Shown here: piece by piece, positions 9,368 through 41,495 of the stretch
Layout: each line of letters opens with the position of its first letter
Numbering within the stretch: the first letter of the stretch is position 1
Virus record (IMG/VR): IMGVR_UViG_3300020469_004256
Coordinates: 1 to 64,000 of that record
Reading direction: 5' to 3' (one strand)
DNA from: a virus
DNA: 64,000 bases
The notes under the pieces: model-generated
The model's database searches: none
What the model was told of the DNA's origin: nothing
Seen by the model: only the letters and a program-made list of their open reading frames with translations
Program-made: the position numbers and the translations under genes

Positions 9368-9375
9368 AAAAATAA

Positions 9376-9570: not shown

Positions 9571-9591
9571 ATACTGCTCGGTTGTATGTTA

Positions 9592-9599
9592 TATTTATA
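9592..9599 (-). promoter_or_regulatory. T4-type late promoter (TATAAATA) for gene 9376-9570
   Basis: Full-consensus TATAAATA; predicted start near 9586, leader about 15 bases without a clear Shine-Dalgarno. Confidence 0.65.
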
Positions 9600-9615
9600 T
9601 AGATATCTGTATTTA

Positions 9616-10533: not shown

Positions 10534-10538
10534 TTATT

Positions 10539-10673
10539 TTATTTGTTTCTTTCCATTAACCATATAATTATAGGTAATGAAAATGCCATTATTATGTAAA
10601 TTTCTAAGGTTGTTAATTCAATTCCACATCTTAGAATACATTCTCCCCACCAATTGTTTATGGCTTCGATCAT
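10539..10673 (-). CDS. Small membrane protein, 44 aa
   Basis: ATG at 10673 (two bases after the preceding stop) to TAA at 10541-10539; 44 residues with a short Trp/Cys-rich N-terminus (MIEAINNWWGECILRCG) and a membrane span (IYIIMAFSLPIIIWLM). Position between two close genes supports it. No family recognised. Confidence 0.5.
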   Translation of the reverse strand: MIEAINNWWGECILRCGIELTTLEIYIIMAFSLPIIIWLMERNK

Positions 10674-18865: not shown

Positions 18866-19528
18866 CTACCTTTGCTTCATATATCTGCATACTTCAACAA
18901 TTGTTTGCTCATTTACATCAACATTAACAACTAGCCAATATGCAGGATCAGGTGTTGTGTTAAAAAGATAATGCATTTTAGCAGTATCAACAAAATATAA
19001 AATTCCTTGTTGCCATTGTAAAACTTTGTCTTCTAATATAAATGTCATGCCAGGAGTGTCACAATTTCTCAACGGCATTATTAATCTAAATGTATCAAGA
19101 TTTAATTTATTTGATTGATAAAAATCATATTCATCCGGATGATCTCTATGTGGAGGAAAAAATCCACCTGTGTTTAATTTTAAAATATGTGTTCTAAATA
19201 TATGTCCTTCAAATGGTGCTAAACATTTTTTTAATGATGGCCATTCCATTACTGGTGTTGGTGTTTTAAAATCTCTTTCAGTCCATGATGTATTATTTTC
19301 TTTGTTGTATTCATACACACTATCTAAGTCTGGAATTCCTGTCATGCATCCATCTAAACTTGTGATGCTTAATCCTTGTCTAGGATAATCTTTTCTTGGA
19401 TTATATTTTACATAGTCAAACTGTTCTTCAGTCCAATCAATAAATTCAGGAGAATCCTTCATACGAAGTGTTAAAGGATAATGTGCTCCAAATGTTATTA
19501 GGTCTCTATATAAACTGTTTTTGTTCAT
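18866..19528 (-). CDS. 2OG-Fe(II) oxygenase, aspartyl-hydroxylase-like
   Basis: 220 residues. GGFFPPHRDHPDE gives the H-x-D pair (His127, Asp129), FRLIMPLRNCDTPGMTFILED is the typical strand, and YFVDTAKMHYLFNTT gives the distal His186. The oxoglutarate-binding Arg is less clear. Overlaps the radical SAM gene upstream by four bases. Substrate unknown. Confidence 0.75.
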   Translation of the reverse strand: MNKNSLYRDLITFGAHYPLTLRMKDSPEFIDWTEEQFDYVKYNPRKDYPRQGLSITSLDGCMTGIPDLDSVYEYNKENNTSWTERDFKTPTPVMEWPSLKKCLAPFEGHIFRTHILKLNTGGFFPPHRDHPDEYDFYQSNKLNLDTFRLIMPLRNCDTPGMTFILEDKVLQWQQGILYFVDTAKMHYLFNTTPDPAYWLVVNVDVNEQTIVEVCRYMKQR

Positions 19529-20685
19529 ACGTATGTGTTATCTCCTGGCCATAACGGCATTTGTGTTCCTGGTGCTCTTTTTGGTATTTTAGAGTCAGCA
19601 CTTGATACACAACTTTTTGAAATGCATTTTTGTGGCTTGTCAAATAATTTAAACCCTGTTTCAATATTTCCAAGAGGTTGATCATGACAACTGTAACTAC
19701 GTTTTATACTGCCATCTGGTTCTCTAATAATGATTGATCTATAACCTGAAGAACATTCCCATCCTTCAAACTTGTTGAAATTAAATGCATTGAATCTTTC
19801 TGCTTGGTCCATAAAATGTGGATTTCCATCTTTATCTCTAAACTCAACTTGAAAATGTTGTGGAACTCCTTCCGAATATGTTTGTTTCTGCATTGTTCTG
19901 TTGTCATCTATTTTAAATGTTGGTTTAGGTCTTTGTACATGTTTATTTTTTTCTTCTGTGAACCCACGTTGTGGCATTCCGTTGTGTAATTTTTCAAGCA
20001 TTTCTTTTGAGTACCCATGGACAACTTCTGACGCTGTTGGATCTGATTGAGCCTTTAGTGTAACATTAATACCTCTATTGTGAAAATATAATGATTCATC
20101 ATACAATTCATCAAACCATTCCGGAACCATAACTTGGTTAATTGTAACTTGTACATCGTGTTCTTGTGCAAAACATAACTTATCGGCAAAGTCTGCTCTT
20201 TTTTCTTTTGAGTTAACATGCTCTCTATGATATGAAGCAGTAATACTAGCTCTGTGAAACGGTGCAACTGCTTTGACATATTGTTCAAACCATTTCATAT
20301 TTCTACTGCAATTACTTGTCATATGAACAGAAGTATAATTAGTATTTTTTGTATCATCAGCGAGATGCTGTAGAATATCAATATAACCAGGATGAAATGT
20401 AGGCTCTCCGCCAGAAAGTGAGAAATGGAAACTATTAAAGCCTCGCTGTCTCGCTTGTCTTTTGATTTCATCAATGGTAGCAAGACAAAGCTCAGTAGGT
20501 CTATGATCTTTTCTGTCACTCCTAGCATACGGCCAACAGTACGAACACCTATAGTTACAAAACCTACCAAGAAGCCAACTGACTGTAAAAAGATCCCTAT
20601 AAAGCATAGTACGTTGTCCCACACGTACAAGATCAGAGTACGGAATTTGTGTAAAATCATATTCACTCCATTTTAAATCACTCAT
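19525..20685 (-). CDS. Radical SAM enzyme with C-terminal cysteine region
   Basis: 386 residues from the ATG at 20685, which overlaps the upstream stop (ATGA); the longer TTG frame is rejected. Radical SAM motif CNYRCSYC (Cys43, 47, 50), SLSGGEPTFHPGYIDIL and later a cysteine-bearing C-terminus (WECSSGYRSIII, SYSCHDQ, KCISKSC) that looks like a SPASM/twitch region with a redox-visible pattern EPDGSIKRSYSC. Unlike its operon neighbours it lacks the N-terminal cysteine domain. Substrate unknown. Confidence 0.88.
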   Translation of the reverse strand: MSDLKWSEYDFTQIPYSDLVRVGQRTMLYRDLFTVSWLLGRFCNYRCSYCWPYARSDRKDHRPTELCLATIDEIKRQARQRGFNSFHFSLSGGEPTFHPGYIDILQHLADDTKNTNYTSVHMTSNCSRNMKWFEQYVKAVAPFHRASITASYHREHVNSKEKRADFADKLCFAQEHDVQVTINQVMVPEWFDELYDESLYFHNRGINVTLKAQSDPTASEVVHGYSKEMLEKLHNGMPQRGFTEEKNKHVQRPKPTFKIDDNRTMQKQTYSEGVPQHFQVEFRDKDGNPHFMDQAERFNAFNFNKFEGWECSSGYRSIIIREPDGSIKRSYSCHDQPLGNIETGFKLFDKPQKCISKSCVSSADSKIPKRAPGTQMPLWPGDNTYV

Positions 20686-21902
20686 TGCCAATAGTCCTTA
20701 AATTCTGGATACACTTCTAAAAAATTAGTTTTGTTTAATCTATCCATAGTTTCAATATATTCCTTTGTTGATTTTGGCAACACATCATTGTTTATATCAG
20801 TATTATTCATATAGTCTAATACATAGTTTGACCATTTAATTATTTTGGCCAAACGATTCTCCTTGATATTTTCTAAACTTTCTATTTTATTATAAACTCT
20901 TTTTGTTATAATGTCTTTCATTTTCTTTGGTATATATTGAATATTTAGAGCTTCTGGATATTGTACCAAACTACAATGAAAGGGGCAATCTAAAGATATA
21001 TAATAATCAATAATATCATCAAATCTAGAAATATTGTACAACGAAACTGTACATGTTGTTGTTAAATTAAAAACTTCTTGTGGTAATTTAGATTTTAATG
21101 TTGTTATATTATCTTCAACTGCTTGTAAATTACTTCCTGTTCTTAGATAACTGTGTATTTTTTTATCACCATCTAAACTTACACGACAATTTATCTTTTT
21201 AAATTTACTCCAAAGGTCACTGATATGCCTATCCTTCAATACTATATTGTTTAAATTTGTATTGTATTCTAATGTGATATTGTGGGCATATGGTAATAGT
21301 TTTTCTAATGCATCATAGTGTTGTGGCTGTATCAAAGGCTCGCCGCCTGCTATAACTATTTCTTCTACTCTTGGTCCTATGTCATTTACTACTTGATTAA
21401 ATGTTTCTATGGGTAATTTTGCTATGCCTCTCCATGTGCTGGTTTCAGTTAGTTGATATTTGTCAAACAAACGTTTAACCTCATCATGTTTGTTTACTGC
21501 TACTGCCCAAGTTGAACTGTATATTGATGAACAATGTCTGCATCTTAGATCACACACATTACCAAAACGCAATTCAATTGTTTTAACGTTCATTGGTAGT
21601 TCACCATCATTTACTTCTTTTAACACTTGAGGAATATGCTTTTCATAATCTTGATTACACTGTTGCCTAGTTGATATAACATTTGCTTTTTCCATATCCC
21701 AACAACTTTTACAACCTTCATGCTGTATTCCGTTCATCAAGTTATTGCGTATTTTTTTATAATTGTCATTATTCCATATTTCTTTGAGTGTTTTATCTCC
21801 ATAGTGTCCTAACGAATCATGATTACGCCAACAAGCACTTATAAAGCCTTTTGGCTTTAGGTTCATGTGTATGAACGGCATTATACAAAAAGTCTTACTC
21901 AT
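20682..21902 (-). CDS. Radical SAM enzyme with N-terminal SPASM-like cysteine domain
   Basis: 406 residues from the ATG at 21902, overlapping the upstream stop. N-terminal cysteines Cys6, Cys24, Cys64-x-x-Cys67 with KTLKEIWNNDNYKKIRNNLMNG between them, exactly the spacing seen in SPASM domains (G, then E-I-W-N...R). The core motif is CDLRCRHC (Cys117, 121, 124), then VIAGGEPL and VSLDGDKKIHSYLR. Core cysteines sit at the same residues as in gene 7000-8262, so the two are paralogues. Substrate unknown. Confidence 0.9.
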   Translation of the reverse strand: MSKTFCIMPFIHMNLKPKGFISACWRNHDSLGHYGDKTLKEIWNNDNYKKIRNNLMNGIQHEGCKSCWDMEKANVISTRQQCNQDYEKHIPQVLKEVNDGELPMNVKTIELRFGNVCDLRCRHCSSIYSSTWAVAVNKHDEVKRLFDKYQLTETSTWRGIAKLPIETFNQVVNDIGPRVEEIVIAGGEPLIQPQHYDALEKLLPYAHNITLEYNTNLNNIVLKDRHISDLWSKFKKINCRVSLDGDKKIHSYLRTGSNLQAVEDNITTLKSKLPQEVFNLTTTCTVSLYNISRFDDIIDYYISLDCPFHCSLVQYPEALNIQYIPKKMKDIITKRVYNKIESLENIKENRLAKIIKWSNYVLDYMNNTDINNDVLPKSTKEYIETMDRLNKTNFLEVYPEFKDYWQ

Positions 21903-23262
21903 CAATTATCTCTGCTAGTTCAGGAAATACTCCACGCCAGTCCTCGTTTCTTATGCTATCAAACAGTGCTGTTTTTTCATAGAATTCCTCTGTTAGTTTG
22001 TGTGTGTGTTTATTTTGTAATGCATTTTTTCTTAAATCTTTCCATGATGTATTATTAGATTCTATGCTAGATTGTAAAACTGTAATACATTTATCGTATA
22101 CTCTGCGTACAATGAGCTTTGTCGCTTCATTTTTTAATAGTGTATGCTTGTTATAAAATGGGTCAAACTCACCTTCTAATATTTGTAATATTCTTAATTT
22201 TGTGTTGTTTTTTTGATTAGCCACAGCAAGGTATTTAGGTGTTGACGCAATAGTTGGTTCAAAATTAAGTTTCCGCATACCAAGTTTTTCAATTGGAAAA
22301 AATTTTATCATCCATTCTAAAAATTCTTTGATATACAATACATTGTATATTGTAATTGTATGATTTATAGACAATCGTGTATTGTTATTTTCTTGACAGT
22401 ATGTTAACCATTTTTTTGCAGATGATTCAACTTTACTCCAAACAGACCTTTTTCTTAAAAATTCTGCACGTTCTTTTATTCCATCTAAACTTAATGTGAT
22501 TTTTACATTTTTAAAGTTAACAAGCAACCTACGATAACCCACCTTTGGAAAAAATGAACAATTTGTAATTACTTCAATAGTGATATTTTTAGCCAAATCC
22601 CATTTCACAAGATTAGCAAGAAATGTTTGAAACTGGTCATTTAAGAACGGTTCTCCACCAGTGACTTTTACTCTTGTTAGATTTTTGATAGTGTCTTTAG
22701 AAATGTCACTAAGATATTGATTTGTTTTTGGTAATTGTTTAACTCTGTTATACACACGTTCGTCACCACCATAAAAATTCTCAACTGCTTTTTTATTGTT
22801 GGCTAAATCTTCATCCCAGGTTGTTGATAAACTAGGGCCGCATGATCTACATTTTAAATTACAAAATCTTCCTGTTTGTATTTCTAAAAATTGCAAAGTA
22901 GGTTGTGTATAATCTATTTGATCTTGACTGTAATACGATAATTCACAATCGTATTGGTCAGCGTTTTCGTGGTGCTGTAATGCACCTGTTCTCATAGATT
23001 CTATTCCTTTACTTTCATCATCATAACATCTCCAACAGGCTTTGATAGTTTCACCATTGAGTGATTTTTGCCTTACAGATTTCCACATGTTATCGTATCC
23101 TTCATTAAATGTTGTAGGATACATTTGATCTCCTTCAAGTTCTTGTCTTGCTAATTTTAAGTCAAATCTACAGCAAGGAACTATTTCTAATCTTGGCATA
23201 CTGGTTACAGCACCACGAAATAGATATGGACAATAAGTTTTGTTTTTTTTCAGATCAATCAT
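21895..23262 (-). CDS. Radical SAM enzyme with N-terminal SPASM-like cysteine domain; first gene of the operon
   Basis: 455 residues from the ATG at 23262 (MIDLKKNKTYC); a longer frame from 23298 adds 12 residues with no support. N-terminal Cys11, Cys30-Cys31 and Cys76-x-x-Cys79; core CNLKCRSC (Cys134, 138, 141), then KVTGGEPFLN, EVITNCSFF and TLSLDGIKERAEFLRKR. No obvious Shine-Dalgarno. The late promoter at 23320-23327 lies upstream and may drive the whole twelve-gene operon. Substrate unknown. Confidence 0.9.
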   Translation of the reverse strand: MIDLKKNKTYCPYLFRGAVTSMPRLEIVPCCRFDLKLARQELEGDQMYPTTFNEGYDNMWKSVRQKSLNGETIKACWRCYDDESKGIESMRTGALQHHENADQYDCELSYYSQDQIDYTQPTLQFLEIQTGRFCNLKCRSCGPSLSTTWDEDLANNKKAVENFYGGDERVYNRVKQLPKTNQYLSDISKDTIKNLTRVKVTGGEPFLNDQFQTFLANLVKWDLAKNITIEVITNCSFFPKVGYRRLLVNFKNVKITLSLDGIKERAEFLRKRSVWSKVESSAKKWLTYCQENNNTRLSINHTITIYNVLYIKEFLEWMIKFFPIEKLGMRKLNFEPTIASTPKYLAVANQKNNTKLRILQILEGEFDPFYNKHTLLKNEATKLIVRRVYDKCITVLQSSIESNNTSWKDLRKNALQNKHTHKLTEEFYEKTALFDSIRNEDWRGVFPELAEIIDE

Positions 23263-23319
23263 TATGTGTAGTATACAATAAAATTTTAATAAAATCAATA
23301 TAAACTGTGTATTTTATAT

Positions 23320-23348: not shown

Positions 23349-23381
23349 GTAGTATAATAATGCTTTACAAGGATTATGTAT

Positions 23382-23708
23382 ATGCCAAACAAATGGTTAT
23401 TTAAAACAGAAATAAAACATTCAAACATACACGGACAAGGAAGATTTGCATTAGAAAGCATTCCAATTGGTCGACAAGTTGTTGAACTCAAAGGTGCTAT
23501 TGTTCCTAAAGAAGAAGCACCTGGAAAATTTCCAATAAGTCTTACTCATAACATGAATTGTGATGACAGTTATGTAAACCACAGTCAAGAACCTAATCTT
23601 GCATACGTTGGTGGAACTAGTTTTGTTTCTTGTGAAAAAATAAAAAAAGGTGACGAGTTAACTATGGACTATAGCCAATTTGCAGGCGATCGTAAATTTT
23701 TATTTTAG
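23382..23708 (+). CDS. SET-domain protein (possible protein lysine methyltransferase)
   Basis: 108 residues from the ATG at 23382, chosen for the AAGGA eight bases upstream (an ATG at 23376 is too close). The SET signature runs the length: HGQGRFALESIPIGRQVVEL, then DDSYVNHSQEPNL (the NHS motif that binds SAM and forms the pseudoknot) and KIKKGDELTMDYSQF (the E-L-T-x-D-Y motif with the catalytic Tyr). The domain is minimal, without a post-SET cysteine cluster. These enzymes methylate lysines on proteins in the cytoplasm. The target could be host ribosomal protein or phage protein; not inferable here. It is convergent with the 2OG gene at 23705 (4-base overlap). Confidence 0.88.
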   Translation: MPNKWLFKTEIKHSNIHGQGRFALESIPIGRQVVELKGAIVPKEEAPGKFPISLTHNMNCDDSYVNHSQEPNLAYVGGTSFVSCEKIKKGDELTMDYSQFAGDRKFLF

Positions 23709-24394
23709 TGTTTAAATCTTTTCTTCCATTCCATATTGGCAAAAGGCCAGCCAGTTATAACAACGCGACAACCTGATTTACCATCACGAACCGGGTTAAC
23801 ATAATGAGCTGATCCTACTCTCATTAGTACACATGAATTTCTTTTTGGTCTTACTGCTAAAGGTCCTGCTAGGTAAGGTTCTTGATTTGATTCTTTAACC
23901 ATTTTTTCTTTAAACTGTTCCCAGTTACTTCTTTCAGTTGGATATGATTGAAAATGATCTTCTAACATGTATTCATTTGGCAATACCAATTCGCCACCTT
24001 CTTCGTTTGTTAGATAGTTTATAAACACAAAATCTCCATATATGTCTTTGCGTTCTGTGTGTACATGATATACACTTTTTGGATTAAATGTCTTTGTGCT
24101 AAACTGTAGTACATTCTTTTCATTTATGTCTTCTAATAATATTGGTTTGTGAACTTCTGATAGTACTTCATTTAGTTTATTAATTACTGCTACCACCACT
24201 GGTTTATCTTTGTGTATGTTATATTTTACATGATTGTAATTGTAATATGATTTACTAATAATATGTGGCTGTTCATTACCATCAAGCTCTTTGGTTTCAG
24301 ATTGGCGTATATGCTCTAGTGTTTGATCCACTAGGCCTTCATCTATAAAGTTATCTGTATACCAAACTTCGTTAGTAATTAGTTCTTGCCACAT
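23705..24394 (-). CDS. 2OG-Fe(II) oxygenase, prolyl-4-hydroxylase-like
   Basis: 229 residues. VYHVHTERKDIYGDFVFINYLTNEEGGELVLPN resembles the P4H core: H-x-E (His112, Glu114; Glu where most members have Asp), then the strand with EGGEL; SAHYVNPVRDGKSGCRVVITGW gives the distal His and the Arg. Last gene of the TonB-receptor operon; its ATG overlaps the radical SAM stop (TAATG). Substrate unknown. Confidence 0.75.
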   Translation of the reverse strand: MWQELITNEVWYTDNFIDEGLVDQTLEHIRQSETKELDGNEQPHIISKSYYNYNHVKYNIHKDKPVVVAVINKLNEVLSEVHKPILLEDINEKNVLQFSTKTFNPKSVYHVHTERKDIYGDFVFINYLTNEEGGELVLPNEYMLEDHFQSYPTERSNWEQFKEKMVKESNQEPYLAGPLAVRPKRNSCVLMRVGSAHYVNPVRDGKSGCRVVITGWPFANMEWKKRFKH

Positions 24395-26175
24395 TATCTT
24401 TCATTTCCTATTGCTATTCTATCTGTTGGTTTAATACGTGCATCAGTTCCATACATACTCATATCAAATTCTTTTTTCCATTGTGCTACATCGTATTTAA
24501 CCAAATCGTGTGGAAATACTTTTGACAGATCTTCTATAAATTGATTTTGATTATGCCAAAACTGATATATTTCATCCGATCTTAAACATCTTGAAAAATA
24601 CAAATAAGTTGCTAGATCTTTGACTTCTGTTCTTGGTTCATCTTTAAATATGTTTTTAATTATTTGTCTATTCTTTTCTACTAATTTTGTCATTAAAGGC
24701 ATTTGATCTAAATGTTTATAAAACCATTTGGCTTGAAATTGTATATCATGCTGTGTATCATATAAGGTTTTCATTGTATGACTTAATGCTCTTGAATTAT
24801 GAAAGTTATGATAAAACCACCAGTAGTCAAACATACGAACTATCTCATCCTCGTCATATGAAAAACATCTATGCATTATTTCTATTTCTTCAAACTCATA
24901 TGTGCTACGTTCATCTCTATACTCTGGATGTTGATGCAACTGTTTGTATCCTAGTCCTGAAAATGAATAAGGAAATGCAAGTATCTTTGATTTAACTTTG
25001 TATTCTTTTTGAAACTTTTCTGTGTATAGCTCTGTATTAGGCACAAGATTTAAAAAATATGAACGCATGAAATCAATGCCAAGCTCATAGTCTTTATCTA
25101 ATGAGTACAACCAACTGTCTGCTGTTTCGCCAGGCAAAGCAATAATCATTTCTGATGTTACTGGTAATCCTTTTGATTTAAAACTATCAATCAAAGGTAA
25201 TAGTTTGTCATTATTGATATTTGCTCTATTAATAACTTTTAACGTTTCTTTTGCGTGTGTTTGAAAACTTACTTTAAGGTTACGTTGATCAGCATCTAAA
25301 TTGTTGTGTATGATATCAATAATCTCTGGCAACCATTTACTACCATTCTTTGCAAGTCCTGAATATGATATCTTAGGATTGTTGCCTGTTGCTTCTTTGT
25401 TTGCTTTCATTTTTTTAACAACATCTAAATCTCTTGGTAGCATACCAAAGTTAGCATCAAGTATTTCTACTTCTGCTATGTTGGTATGTTTATATATAAA
25501 GTCTAACTGTTCATTTACAGGATTCATATCAAACTTTGTAACTTTTGATCTTGCTTGTCCACCCCAGTCACAAAAAGCACATTTAAAAGGACAACCACGA
25601 TTGGTTTCAAATGATGCTTTGACTCTTTTTTCTTCAGCAAGTATGGAATCAAATACTCCATCTAAGTATGGTGTAGGCATTTCATGAGTTTCAATTTGAT
25701 ACAGTTTACGTCCTACTTCTACATTATTCCAACCTCTGCCAAAACTACCATCGTGTACACTCATAGGAGCATCAATATTTTGTAAGAAGTTGCTGACTAA
25801 TTTCTCACCTGGGCCTACCCAAAATATATCTATGTAAGGATGTTCACGAGCAAACTTTTCTGCAAGTTTAGGGTCTTCAGGCACATTAGGTCCACCATAC
25901 ATGGTGATACCATTTGGATTAACATCTTTATAATGACTCATCATCTGATCATTGTATGCTTGATTCCAAACATAACAAGTAAGACCAAATACATCTATGT
26001 TTTTAAATTTTTCTGTGTATTCTTCTACAGGTTTATATTTGTACAAAGGTTCATTAAACTTATATTGTGATTTAATTGCTGGTATCTTGTTACAGTAACT
26101 TATAAGGCATGCCGCCGCATATGGTAACCATGTTTCGTGTATGACTGATATTGTTCCTAATTGTACAGTTTTCAT
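24394..26175 (-). CDS. B12-binding-type radical SAM enzyme
   Basis: 593 residues. The N-terminal about 130 residues (VFGLTCYVWNQAYNDQMM, GITMYGGPNVPEDP, IDIFWVGPGE) form a cobalamin-binding-like Rossmann domain, without the D-x-H-x-x-G base-off motif. The radical SAM core has CPFKCAFC (Cys195, 199, 202) followed by DWGG, then NFGMLPRDLDVV and SEMIIALPGET. This is the architecture of class B methyltransferases and relatives, and of hopanoid/bacteriochlorophyll enzymes. Its operon holds a BtuB-like receptor, which would fit a cobalamin need. Substrate unknown. Confidence 0.88.
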   Translation of the reverse strand: MKTVQLGTISVIHETWLPYAAACLISYCNKIPAIKSQYKFNEPLYKYKPVEEYTEKFKNIDVFGLTCYVWNQAYNDQMMSHYKDVNPNGITMYGGPNVPEDPKLAEKFAREHPYIDIFWVGPGEKLVSNFLQNIDAPMSVHDGSFGRGWNNVEVGRKLYQIETHEMPTPYLDGVFDSILAEEKRVKASFETNRGCPFKCAFCDWGGQARSKVTKFDMNPVNEQLDFIYKHTNIAEVEILDANFGMLPRDLDVVKKMKANKEATGNNPKISYSGLAKNGSKWLPEIIDIIHNNLDADQRNLKVSFQTHAKETLKVINRANINNDKLLPLIDSFKSKGLPVTSEMIIALPGETADSWLYSLDKDYELGIDFMRSYFLNLVPNTELYTEKFQKEYKVKSKILAFPYSFSGLGYKQLHQHPEYRDERSTYEFEEIEIMHRCFSYDEDEIVRMFDYWWFYHNFHNSRALSHTMKTLYDTQHDIQFQAKWFYKHLDQMPLMTKLVEKNRQIIKNIFKDEPRTEVKDLATYLYFSRCLRSDEIYQFWHNQNQFIEDLSKVFPHDLVKYDVAQWKKEFDMSMYGTDARIKPTDRIAIGNER

Positions 26176-26774
26176 AATACATCTTCCACATTATCTATAG
26201 TACCGTCATGCTTGTGCCATATCACTGCTTGAGTTGGTTTCCATACATAATCTAGATCAATGTAATAACTGTAAACAAATTGTATCATATCAGACTTTGG
26301 CGAGTCATGAAAAACCAATTCAGTTTCAAGTTTCATTTTCTTATAGTCTTCATCTTCAAACCAACTGTTGTCTCCACCTATGTATTTTCTTTTGTGCTGA
26401 TATAATTTGTTTAATGCTTTGTCTTTAACATCATGTGTTATGTAATAATGTTTAAACCCTTGTTCTCTTGCCCATGCCATTTGCTGTTTCATCATTTTAA
26501 ATCCATAGCGACCATGTCTGTGTTTTTTGAGAATATGATATCTGCATATCCTAATTGACTCTGGTGTGCCTGTGATAAAACTTCTTTCAGCATAACTAAC
26601 ACTTGCAACTTCTCCGTCAACAACTGCTAACCATAAACTACTTTTAGGATCTAAGTCATCAACATTAAACTTGTTTTTATCATATGTGCCAGCACTTTCT
26701 TCTTTGATAGCCTGAGCTATAAACTCTTGAACCAATACTTTGTATGCTGGTGTGTACTGTACAATCTTTTCCAT
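26172..26774 (-). CDS. GNAT-family N-acetyltransferase
   Basis: 200 residues. VDGEVASVSYAER strand, then RICRYHILKKHRHGRYGFKMMKQQMAWAREQGFKHYYITHD is a good acetyl-CoA-binding segment (R-x-x-G-x-G-like HRHGRYGF), and LNKLYQHKRKYIGG the following helix. Overlaps the B12 radical SAM gene by four bases; its ATG lies one base after the TonB-receptor stop. The acceptor is unknown. Confidence 0.8.
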   Translation of the reverse strand: MEKIVQYTPAYKVLVQEFIAQAIKEESAGTYDKNKFNVDDLDPKSSLWLAVVDGEVASVSYAERSFITGTPESIRICRYHILKKHRHGRYGFKMMKQQMAWAREQGFKHYYITHDVKDKALNKLYQHKRKYIGGDNSWFEDEDYKKMKLETELVFHDSPKSDMIQFVYSYYIDLDYVWKPTQAVIWHKHDGTIDNVEDVL

Positions 26775-28631
26775 TTAGAATTTTAATTTCCATCCTAGTG
26801 TTATGTTTCTACCACCTTGATTATAACCGTCTGGTCGTTCATATTGATCATCTGTTAAGTTTTTTACATTTAGTGTGATTTCAGAATCTTGCGTTAAGTA
26901 ATAACCTGCTGTAAGATCTGCTGTGGTTCTTTCCTTAACAGTAATAGTTGACCAATTGACTGAGTCAGTATCTCTGTGATCGCCATAATATAATATACTA
27001 GGTGATATATAATAGTTATCTTTAGCATAAGTTACACCAGATTTCCAAGTAGTATGAGGTCTACGTTTTAGCCAAGTACCTGATGAGTCTTGTGCTGATG
27101 TTAGTGCTACGTTATTTACAAAACTAAAATTACCAACATAGTAAGTAAAGTCAATATCTGCACCTTTCATATTAGATGTTCCAGTACTGTCATTATTGTA
27201 CGTTGAATTAGAGTATGTAATCATGTCTTTTATATCTGTTGAATAAAATGCAATGTCAAATTTATGTGATTTACTGTTATTACTATAACCAATTTCTTTA
27301 CTTACTGACGTTTCTGGTTTAAGATTTACGTTACCTGTGTAACCATAGTTGTCTGCACCATATAGTTCATATAGTGTTGGTGACTTGTATCCTGTTGATT
27401 GACTTATACGAAAACCATTGTATGCCGCTCCAACTGAATATGTTGATTGTCCATTAGCAATAGAATGTTCGTCATGCCTTAATCCACCTGATAGTATAAA
27501 ATTGTTACTTATTGAATAATCAAAGTTATGATATACTCCAACAACTGATGCTGACTTATCAACAGTTGAATTGTAACTACCAGTGTTGTTAAAATCTACA
27601 TCAAATTCAGTTACATCTACACCTGTTTTAGTTGATGCTTGATCTGTATTTGTTAACCAATCTAATGATCCGTGTGTGGCAACAGAGTCATAGTTGTCTA
27701 TTTCTGTGCCGTTTACGTATTGTCTATCCCAAACGGTATGATCAATAACTGTTTTTATTTTGCCATACTCAACATCAGTTATTGTTTGTACTTGCCCAAA
27801 ATAAAACTTTGTTTCATTAGTGTAATCCAAATCATCTGCACCTGAGGCATCAATGTCTGCATTGGTTGTATTTGTTACACCTGTAAATTTTATTTGTGTA
27901 TCATCTAAGTTTACCACATGTCCAACATTAAATCCTAGTACATCATACCCATCTGGCTCAGTACCTTGTGGGTACACGGATATACCATCTGAATTTTCTG
28001 TGTATATACCAAAAGTAAAAAAGTCTTTACCATATGTGTATGACATTGTGTTTGTATTGTTTGATCCTTTGGCTATTGATATTTCATTTTGTTTATAGTC
28101 TGATGTTTGTATATCAACAACCCCTCCTACTGCGTTTGCACCATAGTTGGTACTCATTGGACCTGTATACAAGTGTAGCCCATCTGCAAAGTGTATGTTG
28201 ATATTGTTTAAATCTGTAGCACCATTTGTGGTTGAATAATCTGTTATTGCTGATCCATTAATTGTTACCAGTGTGTGATTTGAGTTTGTTCCTCTTGTAA
28301 ACAATGATGTTTGTTGTCCTGCTGGGCCTGATCTAACTGCATTAAAATTTGGTGCATCTTCTAATGCTTCTGATAATATTGCAGATCCTTCTTTCTTTTC
28401 ATCGTCTAACCAAATGTATTCATTTGTGTATATTTGATCTGCTTTTTGTGATGTTGTCATAGTATGAAAAACCGGAATAGTGATCACCAATGAATCACAT
28501 ACTATTGTTTCGTCTTTCATTTCTTCCCAATAGCACTCTTGTGCTTTGGCGGATTTAATTAAAAATGCCACAAGTACAATAACAAGAATTATTATACCTG
28601 TACCGATATTTCTTTTTTGTTCACTGTTCAT
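26775..28631 (-). CDS. TonB-dependent outer-membrane receptor, BtuB-like
   Basis: 618 residues. The N-terminus is a long signal sequence (IIILVIVLVAFLIKSAKA, cleavage likely before QEC). A TonB-box-like DSLVITIPV follows, much like the DTLVVTA of BtuB. The plug domain has VRSGPAGQQTSLFTRGTNSNHTLVTINGSAI and GANAVGGVVDIQT; the remainder is a beta barrel with aromatic strands and a TonB C-terminus, YERPDGYNQGGRNITLGWKLKF, ending in Phe. It would import a nutrient such as a cobalamin across the outer membrane in a Gram-negative host with TonB. The next gene is a DUF6580-type membrane protein. Phage receptors of this kind are very unusual; either nutrient supply or blocking superinfection is possible. 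Confidence 0.88.
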   Translation of the reverse strand: MNSEQKRNIGTGIIILVIVLVAFLIKSAKAQECYWEEMKDETIVCDSLVITIPVFHTMTTSQKADQIYTNEYIWLDDEKKEGSAILSEALEDAPNFNAVRSGPAGQQTSLFTRGTNSNHTLVTINGSAITDYSTTNGATDLNNINIHFADGLHLYTGPMSTNYGANAVGGVVDIQTSDYKQNEISIAKGSNNTNTMSYTYGKDFFTFGIYTENSDGISVYPQGTEPDGYDVLGFNVGHVVNLDDTQIKFTGVTNTTNADIDASGADDLDYTNETKFYFGQVQTITDVEYGKIKTVIDHTVWDRQYVNGTEIDNYDSVATHGSLDWLTNTDQASTKTGVDVTEFDVDFNNTGSYNSTVDKSASVVGVYHNFDYSISNNFILSGGLRHDEHSIANGQSTYSVGAAYNGFRISQSTGYKSPTLYELYGADNYGYTGNVNLKPETSVSKEIGYSNNSKSHKFDIAFYSTDIKDMITYSNSTYNNDSTGTSNMKGADIDFTYYVGNFSFVNNVALTSAQDSSGTWLKRRPHTTWKSGVTYAKDNYYISPSILYYGDHRDTDSVNWSTITVKERTTADLTAGYYLTQDSEITLNVKNLTDDQYERPDGYNQGGRNITLGWKLKF

Positions 28632-29157
28632 GAATGCCTTTCCTATTAACTACTATTAAGTAGATGTTGTGTAAAGGTCGAGACAATGCTACAGTCAATG
28701 ATGCCATCAAGGCAGTATAAACAACTGTGCCTAACAGTGTATTTTGGAAAAATGGTATTGCCATTGTGTAACACATTATCAATCCTTCTAATGTGTTAGG
28801 ATAGTAGTCCCACATAATCCATACTGCAAAATTTGTTACTATGAAAAACAATACTGATGATATCAGCGTCATTGTTGCTAAAGGCAAGTACTTTCCAAAC
28901 TGCATAGCCCATCTGCTGATAACTGTGGACATTGCTATTGATCCATAAACCCAAAGCATATAAGGATGAAACCCTATAAACACATCTCCAATAAACATTG
29001 CCATTAATGGTACTGCTATTGCTATCCAACGATCGTTAACGATGTATGGTGCAAATATAGCCGCGGCCAATATTGGTGTAAAGTTTGGTGGATGTGGTAT
29101 GAGTCTACCTATGGCAAGAATGCCAGAAATATATAAAAATGATAGTATAATCTTCAT
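28621..29157 (-). CDS. DUF6580-like integral membrane protein (putative ECF-transporter S component)
   Basis: 178 residues with five or six membrane spans. PHPPNFTPILAAAIFAPY near the start, then PLMAMFIGDVFIGFHPYMLWVYGSIAM, match DUF6580, a family often placed beside TonB receptors and vitamin transporters. It overlaps the TonB-receptor gene by 11 bases. Likely a substrate-binding or permease component for the same solute; that role is inference. First gene of the operon, behind a combined sigma70/late promoter. Confidence 0.7.
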   Translation of the reverse strand: MKIILSFLYISGILAIGRLIPHPPNFTPILAAAIFAPYIVNDRWIAIAVPLMAMFIGDVFIGFHPYMLWVYGSIAMSTVISRWAMQFGKYLPLATMTLISSVLFFIVTNFAVWIMWDYYPNTLEGLIMCYTMAIPFFQNTLLGTVVYTALMASLTVALSRPLHNIYLIVVNRKGIHEQ

Positions 29158-29205
29158 AATAGTATTACCCCAACCTCTATTGTTAAATACGGTAAATTGT
29201 AATAC

Positions 29206-29236
29206 TATTTATAACATACTTTCCAAAATGTGTCAA
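29206..29236 (-). promoter_or_regulatory. Combined sigma70 and late promoter for the TonB-receptor operon
   Basis: TTGACA at 29236-29231, 17-base spacer, then TATAAATA at 29213-29206 which serves as both a -10 hexamer (TATAAA) and a full T4 late motif. Early and late transcription from one site is predicted. A leader of about 45 bases follows. Confidence 0.75.
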
Positions 29237-30032: not shown

Positions 30033-30749
30033 TCACTTTTTTAATAAAGGAACAACATATTTTCCGCCTACATCCCAAGGGCCTAGTACCAATCTACTCA
30101 CATCATCATGATGATTGTCATGATATCCTTCACCCCACATAATCATATTACTAACAAAATCAATTGTTGTTGGCTCAGCTTCTTTGCCATTGTGTCCAAA
30201 ATAATTTAAGTATGTTAAGAAAAACCATGCGTGAGTAAAATTAAATGCCATCCATACAACTAACCAAGGATTGATCAAAGCATGAAGTATTACTGCTCCT
30301 GTGTATAGTTTCCAGTAATGTTTGGTTGTGAACACTGCATCTCGTTGTCTTAAAAATTTTCTCATTGGAATAGCACCACTTGGAGTTCTGTATCTGCCCA
30401 ACAACATACGCCACCATCCCAGATCTTTTGGAGAGTGTGTGTCTAATTCTGTGTCAGTATACTTGTGATGATTTAAGTGTGCAACAACATTATGTCCTGG
30501 TGGACCAACTGCACTTATTACTGTTGATGCTAATAATATTTTTCTGCCAACCCAACTTGGCTCAAACTGGTAATGACATAGCCACCTATGGTAACATATC
30601 TGAGCAAGATTGTTTGTGATGTGTCCTGCTATTGTAAAAATTAATGCAAGTTCCCATGAACCTCCCATAATAAAATATGCTGGAATACCAATTACTGCAA
30701 CGATAAACATCACAACAATTTTTAATGTTACCCAATCAATATACTTCAT
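30033..30749 (-). CDS. Membrane fatty-acid desaturase (second copy)
   Basis: 238 residues, somewhat shorter than the usual 260-300. Three histidine boxes of the acyl-CoA/acyl-lipid desaturases: HRWLCHY, HLNHHKYTD and HDNHHDD, between hydrophobic segments. Di-iron membrane enzymes of this kind introduce a double bond in acyl chains. Four bases after its partner gene. Whether it acts on acyl-lipid or acyl-CoA is not clear from sequence. Confidence 0.88.
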   Translation of the reverse strand: MKYIDWVTLKIVVMFIVAVIGIPAYFIMGGSWELALIFTIAGHITNNLAQICYHRWLCHYQFEPSWVGRKILLASTVISAVGPPGHNVVAHLNHHKYTDTELDTHSPKDLGWWRMLLGRYRTPSGAIPMRKFLRQRDAVFTTKHYWKLYTGAVILHALINPWLVVWMAFNFTHAWFFLTYLNYFGHNGKEAEPTTIDFVSNMIMWGEGYHDNHHDDVSRLVLGPWDVGGKYVVPLLKK

Positions 30750-30753
30750 ATCA

Positions 30754-31548
30754 CTAATCTTTCAACATTGATGCTTTGATTGGTCTTGACATTTTAAGTT
30801 TTTTTGGTTCAAGTTCTAACAATTTAATAAACCAACCGCCTACATCAAACTCCCACCATTTGTGTTTGAAACTAGGATTTTTAGGATTGGCATGGTGGTT
30901 GTTATGCCATCCTTCACCCCACATTAATATACCAAGTGCTGGAATATTTCTTGAGTTATCAGTTGTTTCAAAGTTTCGATATCCAAACATATGAGTCAAT
31001 GTGTTAATAAAAGATCCTGCGTTCCATAAAACCATTGCAGGAAATAGATAGGCCGCTACTAACAACATTGGATCAATCCATAACCATATGCCTGCTATAG
31101 TACCATGGATTAAAAAATACCATCTATGAGCAAACGCATGAAAATTATCTCTAATCAAATGCAAAGCATATTTTGGACTAGGTGTTTCAAACATACTCAA
31201 CCATTGTACTTTTAAAAATCCTTTGTAGTTTGGCGAGTGTGGATCATCTTCTTTATCTGTATGCACATGATGTTCTCGGTGTATTGCTACCCAACCAATT
31301 GTTGATCCTGTTAGTCCATACATTCCTGCCATTGAACCAAAGTAATGAAACCATTTAGGTGCATTCCAACTCCTGTGTGATAAAAGCCTATGGAAAGTCA
31401 TAGTCATTCCAAAACATCCTGTAATGAAATATACAAAGAATCCTATTAGCCAATGATACCAATGTCCATACACAATCATTGGAATTATGCTTAGATGTGC
31501 TATAACTTGGCTAAAAAATAATGCCCATTTAAAATAATTTTGTTTCAT
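30754..31548 (-). CDS. Membrane fatty-acid desaturase (first copy)
   Basis: 264 residues. Histidine boxes HRLLSHRS, HREHHVHTD and HNNHHANPKN are typical of Delta9-type acyl-CoA desaturases; FHRLLSHRSW, GSIAGxYG-like GSTIGWVAIHREHH and the WWEFDVGGW end (cf. DPTxWxI in stearoyl-CoA enzymes) fit. Four membrane spans are visible. A combined sigma70/late promoter lies upstream. Likely alters membrane fluidity or lipid composition in infected cells; inference. Confidence 0.92.
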   Translation of the reverse strand: MKQNYFKWALFFSQVIAHLSIIPMIVYGHWYHWLIGFFVYFITGCFGMTMTFHRLLSHRSWNAPKWFHYFGSMAGMYGLTGSTIGWVAIHREHHVHTDKEDDPHSPNYKGFLKVQWLSMFETPSPKYALHLIRDNFHAFAHRWYFLIHGTIAGIWLWIDPMLLVAAYLFPAMVLWNAGSFINTLTHMFGYRNFETTDNSRNIPALGILMWGEGWHNNHHANPKNPSFKHKWWEFDVGGWFIKLLELEPKKLKMSRPIKASMLKD

Positions 31549-34351: not shown

Positions 34352-35205
34352 TATTGACTTGCCCTAACTTTTCTTTTTAATTTTTCTGTAGCATCTGCCC
34401 ATTGTTCTTGGGAACTGTCTACTGGCAATGTCAGTTCAATGGTTGCTTTCGTTTTGGCTCTATTATATTTGAAACCTTCAGGGCAAACCTTTTGTAAGAA
34501 TTGTTCTGCCTGTTCATTAACTCTATTTTCGCAATGAAGACCTACTTTGATCGATCCTTTTAGGCTATGAACATAGGCCATATATCGATTGTCTAGTTCT
34601 GGAAGTCTATGCCATAGAGTAATAGCATTTTCGTTGGCTTTCTTGTAATCTTCTCTCTGTATTGACCATTCCGCACCATATATCTTAACGAATTCAGCAT
34701 AATGATTTAACACCGTATCAGGTGTAGGAATAATCTCTGTGTCTGTGAACAAGGCAGGCTCATATGTGCCTTCGTCTGTCCACTGACTCTTAACAGCATG
34801 AATGTTATATTCTCCCATTTGTGTGGGACGTTTATGATATTTCTCTCTCCATTTGTCTAATAGATCTAAATAAATCTGATCAATTGATTCACATAGCAGT
34901 ACCGTTGCCAATATCTTATAGTTCTTAACCGCTAGTACGTCTGCATAACCTTTGGTCTTGAATACATGAGTTTGATCTGCTCGTCCTGTTAAGTCCTGAT
35001 GTTCGTACACGATCACATCACCCTTTACTGTATATGCAACCACATCAATTTGTCCACCGTGAATACCATACTCATTGGTTGCACTAGTAACACTAGGTAA
35101 TCCTAGTAACTTATTAATCTTGTTAAGGTCATTAATTCCTATATCAGTTGCTAGATGTTGAGTAAACTTGGTTTCTAACTCATACTGCTCTCTGAGTGTT
35201 TTCAT
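34351..35205 (-). CDS. Possible PD-(D/E)XK nuclease-fold protein
   Basis: 284 residues. GGQIDVVAYTVKGDVIVYEHQ recalls the D-(x)n-E-x-K/Q pattern of PD-(D/E)XK-type nucleases, followed by ADQTHVFKTKGYA and LATVLLCESID; the C-terminal half is helical and Lys-rich, vaguely like DUF4268 restriction-endonuclease-like proteins. That match is weak. Its ATG lies one base before the metallopeptidase stop, so it is the second gene of that operon. Function unknown. Confidence 0.4.
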   Translation of the reverse strand: MKTLREQYELETKFTQHLATDIGINDLNKINKLLGLPSVTSATNEYGIHGGQIDVVAYTVKGDVIVYEHQDLTGRADQTHVFKTKGYADVLAVKNYKILATVLLCESIDQIYLDLLDKWREKYHKRPTQMGEYNIHAVKSQWTDEGTYEPALFTDTEIIPTPDTVLNHYAEFVKIYGAEWSIQREDYKKANENAITLWHRLPELDNRYMAYVHSLKGSIKVGLHCENRVNEQAEQFLQKVCPEGFKYNRAKTKATIELTLPVDSSQEQWADATEKLKRKVRASQ

Positions 35206-36431
35206 TATACGTTCTCGTAGTGAGTTGTTATTCCAAATGGTGCTTCAAGGTCTTTGTCATGATTTGAATGTATCACCCAAAGTGTATCACAATAATTGTC
35301 ATCACCCCATGATCCCCAAGGATAACCATCTGTGAACACAATCAACTTTTTAGGTTGTACTCCATTATCTTTCATCCAAGTCCAATTGGCTTCAAACTCA
35401 GTACCACCAAAGCCACCCGGCTTGTAATCTGTGATATCTTTGTCTGGTGTAAACACTTCTGGATTATGAACTTCTGTGTCAAAACTCCACACATGAACTT
35501 TGTAATCTTGGAATGAATCCATTATACCTTTTACTTCACCTAAGAATATATTCAATTGCTTTTCACTAATTGATCCTGATGTATCAATAGCAACACACAC
35601 ATCAACTGCTGGATCTGGTTGTAGTCCAGGTAGTATAGCATCAACTGACCAACCTTTTCTACTAGGTCTTAAAAATGAATAGTCTGATTTTACAACTGAT
35701 GTTATATGTTGATCTAGTAATGATCTCCAATCCATTTTAGGCTCAGTCATATTTTTGATCAAACGTTCAACACCTTTAGGCACATTACCTGCTCCAGCCG
35801 CCTGTGCCGCCTGTAGTACTGCATTTTTAATTTCATCTTTTAACTTGTCTTTGTCTGCTTTAGACATCACAGGTCTTTTGCCTTTACCATCTTTGCCGTC
35901 ACCATCTTTACCTTGTCCTTGACCTTTATCACCTTCACCATCTAAGTGCATATCAAGAGTAACTTTGATTTCAACTTGATTCTTTTTTAGTTCAGTATAT
36001 ATTTCATCTGAGTTTTTATCATAGTACTTAGGATCAAGTAAACCTTCTTTAGGCATTTTACCTAAACCTTCACGAACCAATTGCCCGTTAATAACATAGT
36101 CAGTTGCCATGTTCCAAATCTGCGGATCTCTACCTTCACGTCTTTCCATATGATCATATACACAGTGCATAACTTCATGCCCAATAAGGAAATCAAGTTC
36201 TTCCGAAGTTAATGGTGTGATAAATTCTCTACTATAAAATAAATGTAATCCATCAGTGGCCGCAGTAGGACACCAATCATCAGCATTTTTAAGTTTTAAT
36301 CTTGTTGCAAGATTGCCAAAGAATGGATGTTTTAACAGTAGACGAACTCTACTTTGTACAATTCTTTCACGGATTTCGTGGTCTTCTTGGACTTTAATCT
36401 TTGTTTTTTTTATTGCAGTTTTTGTTGCCAT
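35205..36431 (-). CDS. VWA-like/zinc-metallopeptidase (DUF2201-type) protein
   Basis: 408 residues. N-terminal half has a zinc-peptidase motif GHEVMHCVYDH (H-E-x-x-H, then H). A Gly/Lys/Asp-rich linker (about residues 168-195) leads to a C-terminal VWA fold with the MIDAS motif DTSGSIS, FGGTEF and FTDGYPW. This two-domain arrangement is known in bacterial proteins encoded with a MoxR-type AAA+ ATPase; the AAA+ gene at 40404 with the same promoter is the likely partner. Such pairs are thought to work as chaperone/insertase-like or metal-insertion systems. Target unknown. Confidence 0.8.
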   Translation of the reverse strand: MATKTAIKKTKIKVQEDHEIRERIVQSRVRLLLKHPFFGNLATRLKLKNADDWCPTAATDGLHLFYSREFITPLTSEELDFLIGHEVMHCVYDHMERREGRDPQIWNMATDYVINGQLVREGLGKMPKEGLLDPKYYDKNSDEIYTELKKNQVEIKVTLDMHLDGEGDKGQGQGKDGDGKDGKGKRPVMSKADKDKLKDEIKNAVLQAAQAAGAGNVPKGVERLIKNMTEPKMDWRSLLDQHITSVVKSDYSFLRPSRKGWSVDAILPGLQPDPAVDVCVAIDTSGSISEKQLNIFLGEVKGIMDSFQDYKVHVWSFDTEVHNPEVFTPDKDITDYKPGGFGGTEFEANWTWMKDNGVQPKKLIVFTDGYPWGSWGDDNYCDTLWVIHSNHDKDLEAPFGITTHYENV

Positions 36432-38417: not shown

Positions 38418-39464
38418 TTAATTTTTGTCTTCAACTTTTTTGTTTTTGTATATTCCTTTTAACCCACATGCCCTAATGCATTTACGTAGATGTTTAGGAT
38501 GTGATGCATACCATCTTGATTTTAAAGACTTGTAAAATTCTGTTTGTAATATATCGCTGATTGAATGTTTGTTAAGATCGTTAAAATCTCTATCGTTGGT
38601 TTGTGTAATTTGTTCATACATATGAATTGAATCACCGTACAAGAAACAACAAGGCCACAGTGTCATATCAGCCGCTACAAAGCATTCTGGTTCTTCGTAA
38701 TGTTGACAAGAAAGTGTGTGAACTATATCATCAACTACTTTAGGATCTTTAGATGTATAAATTTCTTTTAGTTTTTGTAAATCATTGTGTGGAAGTTTTT
38801 TAGAATTGTTTAATTTTACTTCTTCAACTACTGTAACACTTTTTTGTTTTTCATCTTTAACAACTAATGGTTTTCTTGGCTTGTGTTTTTTATTTTTGTT
38901 GAATTCATTTCTACCACTAGTTCTTCTAATAAATCTCATACCAAGTTCATTTGCTAAACTTTTTGCATCTTCGTAATCATCTTCATTATGATCAAATGGT
39001 ATAAAAACCCAATTGGCTTTGCCACCTGCACCCATGTATGCTCTCATATTTCTTTCTAGTGTTGACCAATTTACATTTACTCTGTAGATGTGGTTAGTAT
39101 CTTTAAATCCATCTACACTGAAGTCAACATACAAGTTTTCTAGTTTGGCTAACTTTGCCCACCATTCTGCATTTTGATACCCACCATTTGTGCTTAAATT
39201 TATTCTTCCACCAAAGTTAGAAATATATTCAGCAATTTCAAAACATTCGTTATTGAGTATAGGATCACCTAATACTCCGCACAGTTTAAATTCTTTGTTA
39301 TCACAAGATTCTCGTGTTGGAAAAATTTGTTTGATGTTTTCAAATGTAAGTTCGTTATTGCCTCTCAATTTCATGCCCATTTCAGTTCTAGCACACAGAG
39401 GACATTCTGCATTACAGTTAGCAGTTATTTCTAGTTCATATTTTTGGATATGTTTTTCTAACAT
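38418..39464 (-). CDS. Radical SAM enzyme with C-terminal cysteine region, paralogue of 8252-9367
   Basis: 348 residues from the ATG at 39464, chosen because it follows the previous stop and aligns residue by residue with gene 8252: Cys17, 21, 24 in CNAECPLC, matching positions. Then LCGVLGDPILN, STNGGYQN, SVDGFKDTNHIYRVNVNW and GMRFIRRTSGRN, all with counterparts in the paralogue. C-terminal cysteines (LSCQHYEEPECF, LWPCCFLYGD, KCIRACG) should bind an auxiliary cluster. Longer starts exist at 39488 and 39494. Substrate unknown. Confidence 0.85.
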   Translation of the reverse strand: MLEKHIQKYELEITANCNAECPLCARTEMGMKLRGNNELTFENIKQIFPTRESCDNKEFKLCGVLGDPILNNECFEIAEYISNFGGRINLSTNGGYQNAEWWAKLAKLENLYVDFSVDGFKDTNHIYRVNVNWSTLERNMRAYMGAGGKANWVFIPFDHNEDDYEDAKSLANELGMRFIRRTSGRNEFNKNKKHKPRKPLVVKDEKQKSVTVVEEVKLNNSKKLPHNDLQKLKEIYTSKDPKVVDDIVHTLSCQHYEEPECFVAADMTLWPCCFLYGDSIHMYEQITQTNDRDFNDLNKHSISDILQTEFYKSLKSRWYASHPKHLRKCIRACGLKGIYKNKKVEDKN

Positions 39465-39468
39465 TGCT

Positions 39469-39720
39469 TTACTTTCGTAATTTTGCATCACCATGGTAGC
39501 ATTCTGGTGGTTGCGTGTACTGTGGTGAAAGTGTAGCATCGTATTCAAATCTAGTATTACAATACAAACAAACTTTATAATCTTTATCACCCATTGTCAT
39601 ATAAACATGAGGATGATCATTTGGTGGTTCAGCACCTATACAAACAAAACCTTTGACACCAATCTTTATTACAGGTACTCCTATATCATTTTTGTATGAC
39701 GGTGTTGCGTTGGTATCCAT
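39469..39720 (-). CDS. Zinc-finger protein, NDUFS6-like (zf-CHCC)
   Basis: 83 residues. VCIGAEPPNDHPHVYMTMGDKDYKVCLYCNTRFEY fits the zf-CHCC pattern: a Cys, then HP(H/R)VY, and C-x-x-C, the zinc site of the mitochondrial complex I subunit NDUFS6 and its bacterial relatives. The bacterial versions are common in alphaproteobacteria. In the phage it may be a small metal-binding adaptor; the role is unknown. Five bases before the radical SAM gene downstream. Confidence 0.78.
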   Translation of the reverse strand: MDTNATPSYKNDIGVPVIKIGVKGFVCIGAEPPNDHPHVYMTMGDKDYKVCLYCNTRFEYDATLSPQYTQPPECYHGDAKLRK

Positions 39721-40403: not shown

Positions 40404-41495
40404 CTAAACGTCTACGATTAGTTTGCCGTATCTTTTATAAAACTCCTTAAAGCTCACAAGCTCTTTAGGGGAAAACGGTAGTTGATGATTCTTAAGAGCA
40501 ATTCTTGCCCCAAGTACTACCATTTCAGTTTCAAAATTGTCCATCATATATTGTAGAAAACAGTCTGCCATCTTGTGCCAAGCCGCCATCTTCTTGTTCT
40601 TCTGCGCCTTTTCACATTCGTCTTTTAGTTCATAACACAATGAAGTAATCAACGAGTACATAGCACTCACTTCTTTTGTATCAAGTTTCTTAACCTTACC
40701 AGTTAAAATATCTGTTGGGTTAGGAAGTTTACCTGCTACATCTTTATGAGCATTAAATTTTACTGCAAGACCTTCACCTACTGCACCAGTAATGATGTCT
40801 GTAAGTTGTGAGCCTTGTAAATTACTTGACTCTAACATATCACTTACAAAAGACCAACTTCTTGGAGTAGCAAATGCTCTTGATGAGCTTCTAGGATCAA
40901 AGTCATACAAGTCATTTTTAGCAAATGTCAAGTAACCAACCACATCAGGGTGGATGTTATTATTAGTTGCCCAATCTTGCCAGTCTTCAAAATTAACTGC
41001 CATTTCAATATGCAACATTCTGTTAGCAAGTGGACTAGGCATTCTGTAAGTAACACCTCTGTCACTTTCTCTATTACCAGCCGCCACAATCGATACTCCT
41101 TCTGGCAATACATAAGTACCAATTCTTCTGTTAAGAATTAACTGATACGCCGCCGCCTGTACACTTTGTGGTGCCGCATTAATTTCGTCTAAGAACAAAA
41201 TAGATGTGTCCTTAGGATCACTTGGAAGATCAACTGGTGGTGCCCAATCCATTTTATTTTCTTTAGAATTAAAATATGGAATACCACGTAAGTCAGTTGG
41301 TTCTAAAAGAAGCAATCTAAGATCAATCACTCCTCTATCAGTATTCTTACCAATCTGTTCAATAATTTCTGATTTACCAATGCCTGGAGGACCCCATAAC
41401 ATAACGGGTCTTTTAGCATCGATACAAGCAAGTACCTCAGTCATTACATCACTGGGTCTTACTGTTCTAGCGTCTGTTGTTGTTGTTTTAGCCAT
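40404..41495 (-). CDS. MoxR-type AAA+ ATPase
   Basis: 363 residues. Walker A in MLWGPPGIGKSE (about residues 35-42), Walker B ILFLDEIN, sensor-1 Asn in AAGNRES (and SPLANRM with the Arg finger region). DLRGIPYF and EPTDL fit MoxR/CobS-like ATPases. It is the probable partner of the metallopeptidase/VWA protein, with which it shares an identical promoter sequence; such pairs remodel or load target proteins. Cyanophage T4-like genomes carry a CobS-like ATPase, so cobalt/B12 chemistry is one alternative. Confidence 0.9.
   Translation of the reverse strand: MAKTTTTDARTVRPSDVMTEVLACIDAKRPVMLWGPPGIGKSEIIEQIGKNTDRGVIDLRLLLLEPTDLRGIPYFNSKENKMDWAPPVDLPSDPKDTSILFLDEINAAPQSVQAAAYQLILNRRIGTYVLPEGVSIVAAGNRESDRGVTYRMPSPLANRMLHIEMAVNFEDWQDWATNNNIHPDVVGYLTFAKNDLYDFDPRSSSRAFATPRSWSFVSDMLESSNLQGSQLTDIITGAVGEGLAVKFNAHKDVAGKLPNPTDILTGKVKKLDTKEVSAMYSLITSLCYELKDECEKAQKNKKMAAWHKMADCFLQYMMDNFETEMVVLGARIALKNHQLPFSPKELVSFKEFYKRYGKLIVDV

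Follow-up and report, generated by a model that had tools for sequence, protein, structure and literature searches.

Seawater holds little vitamin B12, and many of the bacteria living there are unable to make it. The described proteins closest to the locus analysed here are the TonB-dependent receptor BtuB of E. coli and Salmonella (NCBIfam model TIGR01779), the solitary inner-membrane B12 transporter BtuM, which binds cobinamide as well as cobalamin and in which an invariant cysteine (Cys80, loop 3) binds cobalt (PMC6072759), and CbrT, the S-component of an ECF B12 transporter (6FNP; PMC5997447). A BtuB-like receptor gene and a gene for a DUF6580 membrane protein lie side by side in a phage genome fragment, and it is very likely that together they form a phage auxiliary module for the import of B12 or another cobamide across both membranes; there are no binding or transport data.

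The window, that is, the whole stretch of DNA analysed here, runs from base 1 to base 64,000 of an IMG/VR virus record that is 69,589 bp long. Its B-family DNA polymerase has its closest counterparts in Rhizobiales jumbo phages (Sinorhizobium phage Phosso, 51%; Agrobacterium phage Atu_ph07, 46%), and the record therefore probably covers part of a large genome of the T4 superfamily. A relative contig, G004, is 328 kb long. The features under study are as follows.

24394–26175, minus strand: TokK/KedN5-like radical SAM methylase, putative (TokK 6.5e-50; NF033712 2.2e-47, below cut-off)
26172–26774, minus strand: GNAT acetyltransferase (PF00583, 3.6e-07), between the receptor and radical SAM genes in the same gene run
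26775–28631, minus strand: TonB-dependent receptor, BtuB-like, 618 aa, with signal peptide and TonB-box-like segment (both by inspection), plug and 22-strand-type barrel
28621–29157, minus strand: DUF6580 membrane protein with predicted S-component fold, 178 aa, proposed inner-membrane cobamide transporter, overlapping the start of the receptor gene by 11 bp
29163–29236, minus strand: promoter-like element and leader upstream of the DUF6580 gene, from an alignment of five phages

The receptor is BtuB-like

Judged from its sequence, the receptor is a complete TonB-dependent receptor. Pfam detects both a Plug domain (1.5e-14) and a TonB_dep_Rec barrel (2.3e-26) above the curated cut-offs, and the protein ends in F618, in agreement with an earlier note on this DNA that had proposed a plug and a C-terminal barrel end. 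The signal peptide and BtuB-like TonB box proposed in the same note can also be recognized, by inspection only and without a predictor: the signal peptide is KRNIGTGIIILVIVLVAFLIKSAKA, and residues 46–53 (DSLVITIP) resemble DTLVVTAN of Salmonella BtuB, with contact to TonB being inferred. No second barrel of this kind is found within the whole record.

BtuB is the nearest receptor of known substrate in all three comparisons, which used NCBIfam profiles, PDB sequences and folds. Specifically, TIGR01779 is the top NCBIfam model (7.5e-55), with heme receptor models second (1.3e-25); BtuB is the top match in the PDB sequence search (1.5e-24), with Cir next (5.5e-11); and, among the many solved receptors that Foldseek matches to the AlphaFold model (mean pLDDT 75.9), the top 12 are all BtuB (E 4e-34 to 9e-29), followed by Cir (3e-27). 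The earlier note had stated that siderophore receptors as closest relatives would refute a role in cobalamin uptake, and this outcome did not occur. The receptor scores 186.6 bits and misses the TIGR01779 equivalog cut-off of 599.7 bits, and we therefore name it BtuB-like, not BtuB. In an alignment at about 25–33% identity, the acidic calcium-loop positions 193 (E/D), 195, 228 and 230 of BtuB are kept, and positions 179 and 241 (D179, D241) are not conserved.

The second rank of the heme models raises the alternative of a substrate other than B12 itself, namely a different metal-tetrapyrrole or metal chelate, which could be heme or a precursor of cobamides (cobinamide, for example); the binding of cobinamide by BtuM lends it some support. 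We regard it as unlikely, given that the heme models trail BtuB by ~97 bits and that the riboswitches of relatives (see below) sense cobalamin. Cobinamide uptake would in any case still be corrinoid import, close to the preferred explanation of B12 or cobamide import.

DUF6580 resembles B12 S-components

The earlier identification of the adjoining gene as a DUF6580 membrane protein holds: its ORF matches PF20221 at 2.8e-44, with 151.7 bits against a gathering score of 27 bits. The ORF overlaps that of the receptor by 11 bp, and the two are thus probably translated together. The AlphaFold model of the phage protein (pLDDT 85.5) predicts a six-helix fold like that of vitamin S-components, and VIA-align ranks BtuM first (Z 14.7, 155 residues, 2.9 Å). 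The lead of BtuM is small, with the folate S-component at 13.7 and other vitamin S-components after it. A PDB search with the single sequence returned zero matches, and a family profile was required; the profile of 27 DUF6580 proteins has one sole PDB match below 0.001, to 6FNP_A, the ECF-CbrT cobalamin transporter (0.00045, 23 bits).

No cysteine is conserved across the 27 DUF6580 proteins, and the sole cysteine of the window's protein, C129, is far from the loop that corresponds to the Cys80 loop of BtuM. As DUF6580 is without the essential cysteine of BtuM, it is not a BtuM member; by analogy, it may work like BtuM.

The gene pair is conserved in two phage groups

The pair occurs in eight further virus contigs that fall into two phage groups. 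Four contigs of the window's own group have the same DUF6580-receptor order, with receptors 90% (L001), 85% (L002), 80% (L003) and 62% (L008) identical to that of the window. The order recurs in L022, L097, L099 and L100 of a second, distant group, with receptors 37–39% identical to the window's; a further contig of that group, L098, starts inside a receptor gene in the same identity range, and the DUF6580 order is not visible there. The PstS of L022 is nearest to that of Pelagibacter phage Mosig, and the second group therefore looks pelagimyophage-like. Neighbouring genes vary between contigs, and DUF6580 and receptor stay together. The dN/dS values are 0.08–0.25 for the receptor and 0.09–0.17 for DUF6580, and 0.05–0.25 across receptor, DUF6580 and radical SAM gene, indicating from sequence comparison that all three are under purifying selection. 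Such dN/dS values and the synteny of the pair across other contigs exclude a chance arrangement, and the observation of receptor and DUF6580 together is confirmed.

DUF6580 also occurs without a nearby receptor in 13 other virus loci (L009–L021), where it would therefore act without a receptor or with a host receptor. In one of these, L009 (5998–8776), genes of a tripartite tricarboxylate transporter (TctA and, by inspection, a TctC-like gene) come after the phage DUF6580 gene, and a B12-binding radical SAM gene lies nearby.

The cellular homologue search covered 398 Pseudomonadota genomes. The best receptor match by far is in G128, an alphaproteobacterium (6e-50; next 3e-37), in which an AdoCbl-II riboswitch (71.9 bits) is followed by the receptor gene and then DUF6580. 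In the phylogeny with cellular receptors, a check that the earlier note had proposed, the ten phage receptors cluster together (SH-aLRT 96), apart from the cellular receptors, with G128 as sister to the cluster (100). The G128 branch is long, and its exact placement is less sure. A Pelagibacteraceae locus, L029, was considered as the likely donor and rejected, its receptor not being the nearest; G128 is nearest in the sample.

All loci are metagenomic, and no isolate phage was found with DUF6580 or a close receptor; two top matches in a 'phages' collection were rejected as an isolate-phage source, being Salmonella contigs with btuB. The pair could on these grounds be host DNA that entered through chimeric assembly or a mis-called virus contig. 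Such an origin is scarcely credible in view of the same gene order in independent contigs, the flanking phage genes (the Phosso/Atu_ph07-like polymerase and tail genes, and the Mosig-like PstS of L022) and the separation of the phage receptors, as a single group, from cellular ones.

Cobalamin riboswitches accompany relatives of the pair

Among the 30 nearest cellular loci, 20 were scanned for riboswitches, and a cobalamin riboswitch is present in the locus of 18 of the 20. Two phage contigs have one of their own. An AdoCbl-II riboswitch (78.4 bits, E 4e-20) separates the DUF6580 and receptor genes of L022, with 22 bases between its end and the likely receptor start; in L099, an AdoCbl-II riboswitch (80.7 bits) lies in the same place. 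No riboswitch was found in L097 or L100, where the DUF6580 and receptor genes overlap, and no cobalamin riboswitch was found in the window, L001–L003 or L008.

The window's group has a different conserved feature before DUF6580. A promoter-like element, TTGACA-17-TATAAATA, at 29236–29206 is conserved in the window, L001, L002, L003 and L008, and the five-phage alignment reveals a near-invariant 33-nt leader at 29195–29163, confined to this phage group in the viral collection searched. A low-threshold riboswitch search of the window's leader gave Rfam matches at chance level only, and the 33-nt leader folds no better than shuffles. Elsewhere in the window, the minus strand carries a glutamine riboswitch at 52177–52224 (RF01739, 50 bits), a feature also reported from other marine T4-like phages.

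The association extends to bacteria. The 21 bacterial genomes with DUF6580 hold 18 cobalamin riboswitches in total, four of which lie inside DUF6580 loci (L029, L034, L037, L043), versus 0.07 expected by chance. The order is riboswitch, receptor, DUF6580 in L029, L034 and L037, and DUF6580, riboswitch, receptor in L043, where a DUF4465 protein follows; DUF4465 has been described as a B12-binding family (PMC13398666). In the bacterial loci L034, L037, L043, L093 and L095, DUF6580 is the neighbour of a TonB receptor that has a cobalamin riboswitch. This arrangement, seen in several bacteria, suggests that cells too use DUF6580 as a B12 transporter, of a family not yet recognised as such.

TonB-dependent receptors, including BtuB, are known phage receptors. 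The receptor could accordingly be a surface decoy or superinfection-exclusion factor, as the earlier note had suggested, that takes up space in the outer membrane, ties up TonB or stands in for a host receptor used by other phages, with import incidental; infected cells would gain by shutting out competitors, and there is no direct evidence for this. The suggestion found no support here, on evidence that is itself only indirect. Across the five phage receptors, 69% of positions in predicted extracellular loops are invariant, versus 44% in the rest of the barrel (p 6.5e-6); the loops were assigned by us on a medium-confidence model. This conservation points to a fixed small ligand and, together with the tight linkage to an S-component-like inner-membrane partner and the B12-riboswitch control in L022 and L099, favours a fixed ligand over a diversifying decoy, making a decoy or exclusion role very unlikely. 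Import of B12 or a cobamide remains the preferred reading.

Candidate users of imported B12

The radical SAM gene lies two genes downstream of the receptor gene on the same strand, with the GNAT gene between. In the PDB its closest relative is the cobalamin-dependent methylase TokK, with the alignment starting at residue 15. The Pfam B12-binding match is below threshold (0.0069, 16.7 bits versus 32.1), and the match to NF033712 (KedN5 family) reaches 161.6 bits versus a cut-off of 700. The earlier note had described a B12-binding-type radical SAM enzyme in the same operon as the receptor; the B12-binding domain is not established by Pfam, and use of imported B12 is unproven. We conclude that the gene probably encodes, by homology, a cobalamin-dependent radical SAM methylase, an inferred candidate user of imported B12. 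KedN5-like matches are present in eight of the ten DUF6580 virus records; as a link to B12 use these are suggestive only, being common in cells too.

A B12-dependent ribonucleotide reductase is unlikely as a user: the reductases in three DUF6580 phages have class I features (C-terminal CxxC, by inspection). The AAA ATPase gene at 40404–41495 and the VWA gene at 35205–36431 were considered as CobS/CobT-like B12 synthesis genes, and this was not adopted, Pfam identifying AAA and DUF2201 (metallopeptidase/VWA); their arrangement recalls phage genes often annotated cobT/cobS, without being evidence that B12 is made.

The 64-kb window contains eight radical SAM genes (7000–8262, 8252–9367, 13134–14516, 19525–20691, 20682–21905, 21895–23298, 24394–26175 and 38418–39590), of which six score above the Pfam cut-off. 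Together with several 2-oxoglutarate/aspartyl-hydroxylase-like genes, they give the window a density of iron enzymes that is unusual for a phage. Genes for a SufB/SufD-like pair, of a type that assembles iron-sulfur clusters, at 1819–3857 and for a flavodoxin at 6083–6526 fit the many radical SAM enzymes of the window; in L008, a SufB-like gene (9150–10616, by inspection) lies near the receptor/DUF6580 pair. Two fatty acid desaturase genes (30033–30749 and 30754–31548) adjoin the module, and in relatives one desaturase gene flanks the receptor gene on its opposite side. A gene for a small SET-domain protein (23376–23708), on the opposite strand, is kept in L001, L002 and L003.

Discussion

The case for an import module rests on BtuB being the nearest receptor, the cobalamin riboswitches in relatives, the likeness of DUF6580 to BtuM and CbrT, and the conservation of the pair. 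Gene identities, homology, synteny, riboswitch context in relatives and purifying selection are all directly observed. The cobalamin uptake proposed in the earlier note is in this way well supported by homology and context, not by experiment. Counting against it are the sub-cut-off BtuB score, the partial set of calcium-loop residues, the absence of the BtuM cysteine from DUF6580, its small lead over folate S-components, the lack of a detectable riboswitch in the window, and the viral DUF6580 loci without a nearby receptor.

In the mechanism that we propose, the BtuB-like receptor would bind a cobamide outside the cell and move it across the outer membrane by means of the host TonB-ExbB-ExbD, and DUF6580 would move it across the inner membrane, alone like BtuM or with host partners. 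The imported cobamide would feed cobamide-dependent reactions in infection, most plausibly those of the phage radical SAM methylase(s) or the host methionine synthase. The substrate, the direction in which it is moved, the involvement of host TonB and the enzyme that benefits are inferred.

More broadly, we lean towards the view that marine T4-like phages of two groups share a B12-import module that is partly under its own AdoCbl-II riboswitch, and that DUF6580 is a widespread, unrecognised Gram-negative inner-membrane B12 transporter family. A phage with outer- and inner-membrane B12 importers would be evidence that infection can be limited by the supply of a cofactor, and viral auxiliary genes would extend to vitamin uptake with riboswitch control. 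DUF6580 would gain a testable function and could fill the inner-membrane gap in bacteria with BtuB and without BtuCDF. A literature search that did not cover most subscription journals or any bioRxiv preprints found no phage B12 importer, no phage cobalamin riboswitch and no paper mentioning DUF6580; the novelty of a phage B12-import module is provisional.

Comparison with known systems

The phage receptor shares with BtuB a plug and barrel, a similar length, the top profile, PDB and fold matches and, as far as an alignment at low identity shows, several calcium-loop acidic residues, and its relatives stand in cobalamin-riboswitch context. It differs in its low identity (~25–33%), its score under the equivalog cut-off, the loss of D179 and D241, its phage origin and its coupling to DUF6580. 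Like BtuM, its top structural match, DUF6580 is a small solitary S-component-like protein with a gene beside a BtuB-type gene; unlike BtuM, to which it is only 15% identical, it has no essential cobalt-binding cysteine (PMC6072759). CbrT, a cobalamin S-component and the one PDB match of the DUF6580 profile below 0.001, uses an ECF module and belongs to Gram-positive bacteria, and its sequence match to DUF6580 is weak (PMC5997447).

Among phages, the marine megaphage Mar_Mega_1 also encodes a TonB-dependent receptor, although one described as of the SusC type for carbohydrates; the paper on it mentions neither a B12 link nor an inner-membrane partner nor a riboswitch (PMC9723777). The marine T4-like phages Melnitz and Mosig have glutamine riboswitches, as does the window; whereas a cobalamin riboswitch was reported only in the OM43 host, before btuB (PMC9004378), here it precedes a BtuB-like gene in phage contigs. 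The closest cellular arrangement is the AdoCbl-II riboswitch-receptor-DUF6580 operon of G128/L093, which has the nearest cellular receptor, the same gene partner and the riboswitch class of phages L022 and L099; this cellular operon has the receptor gene first and DUF6580 second, and the phages have the reverse order.
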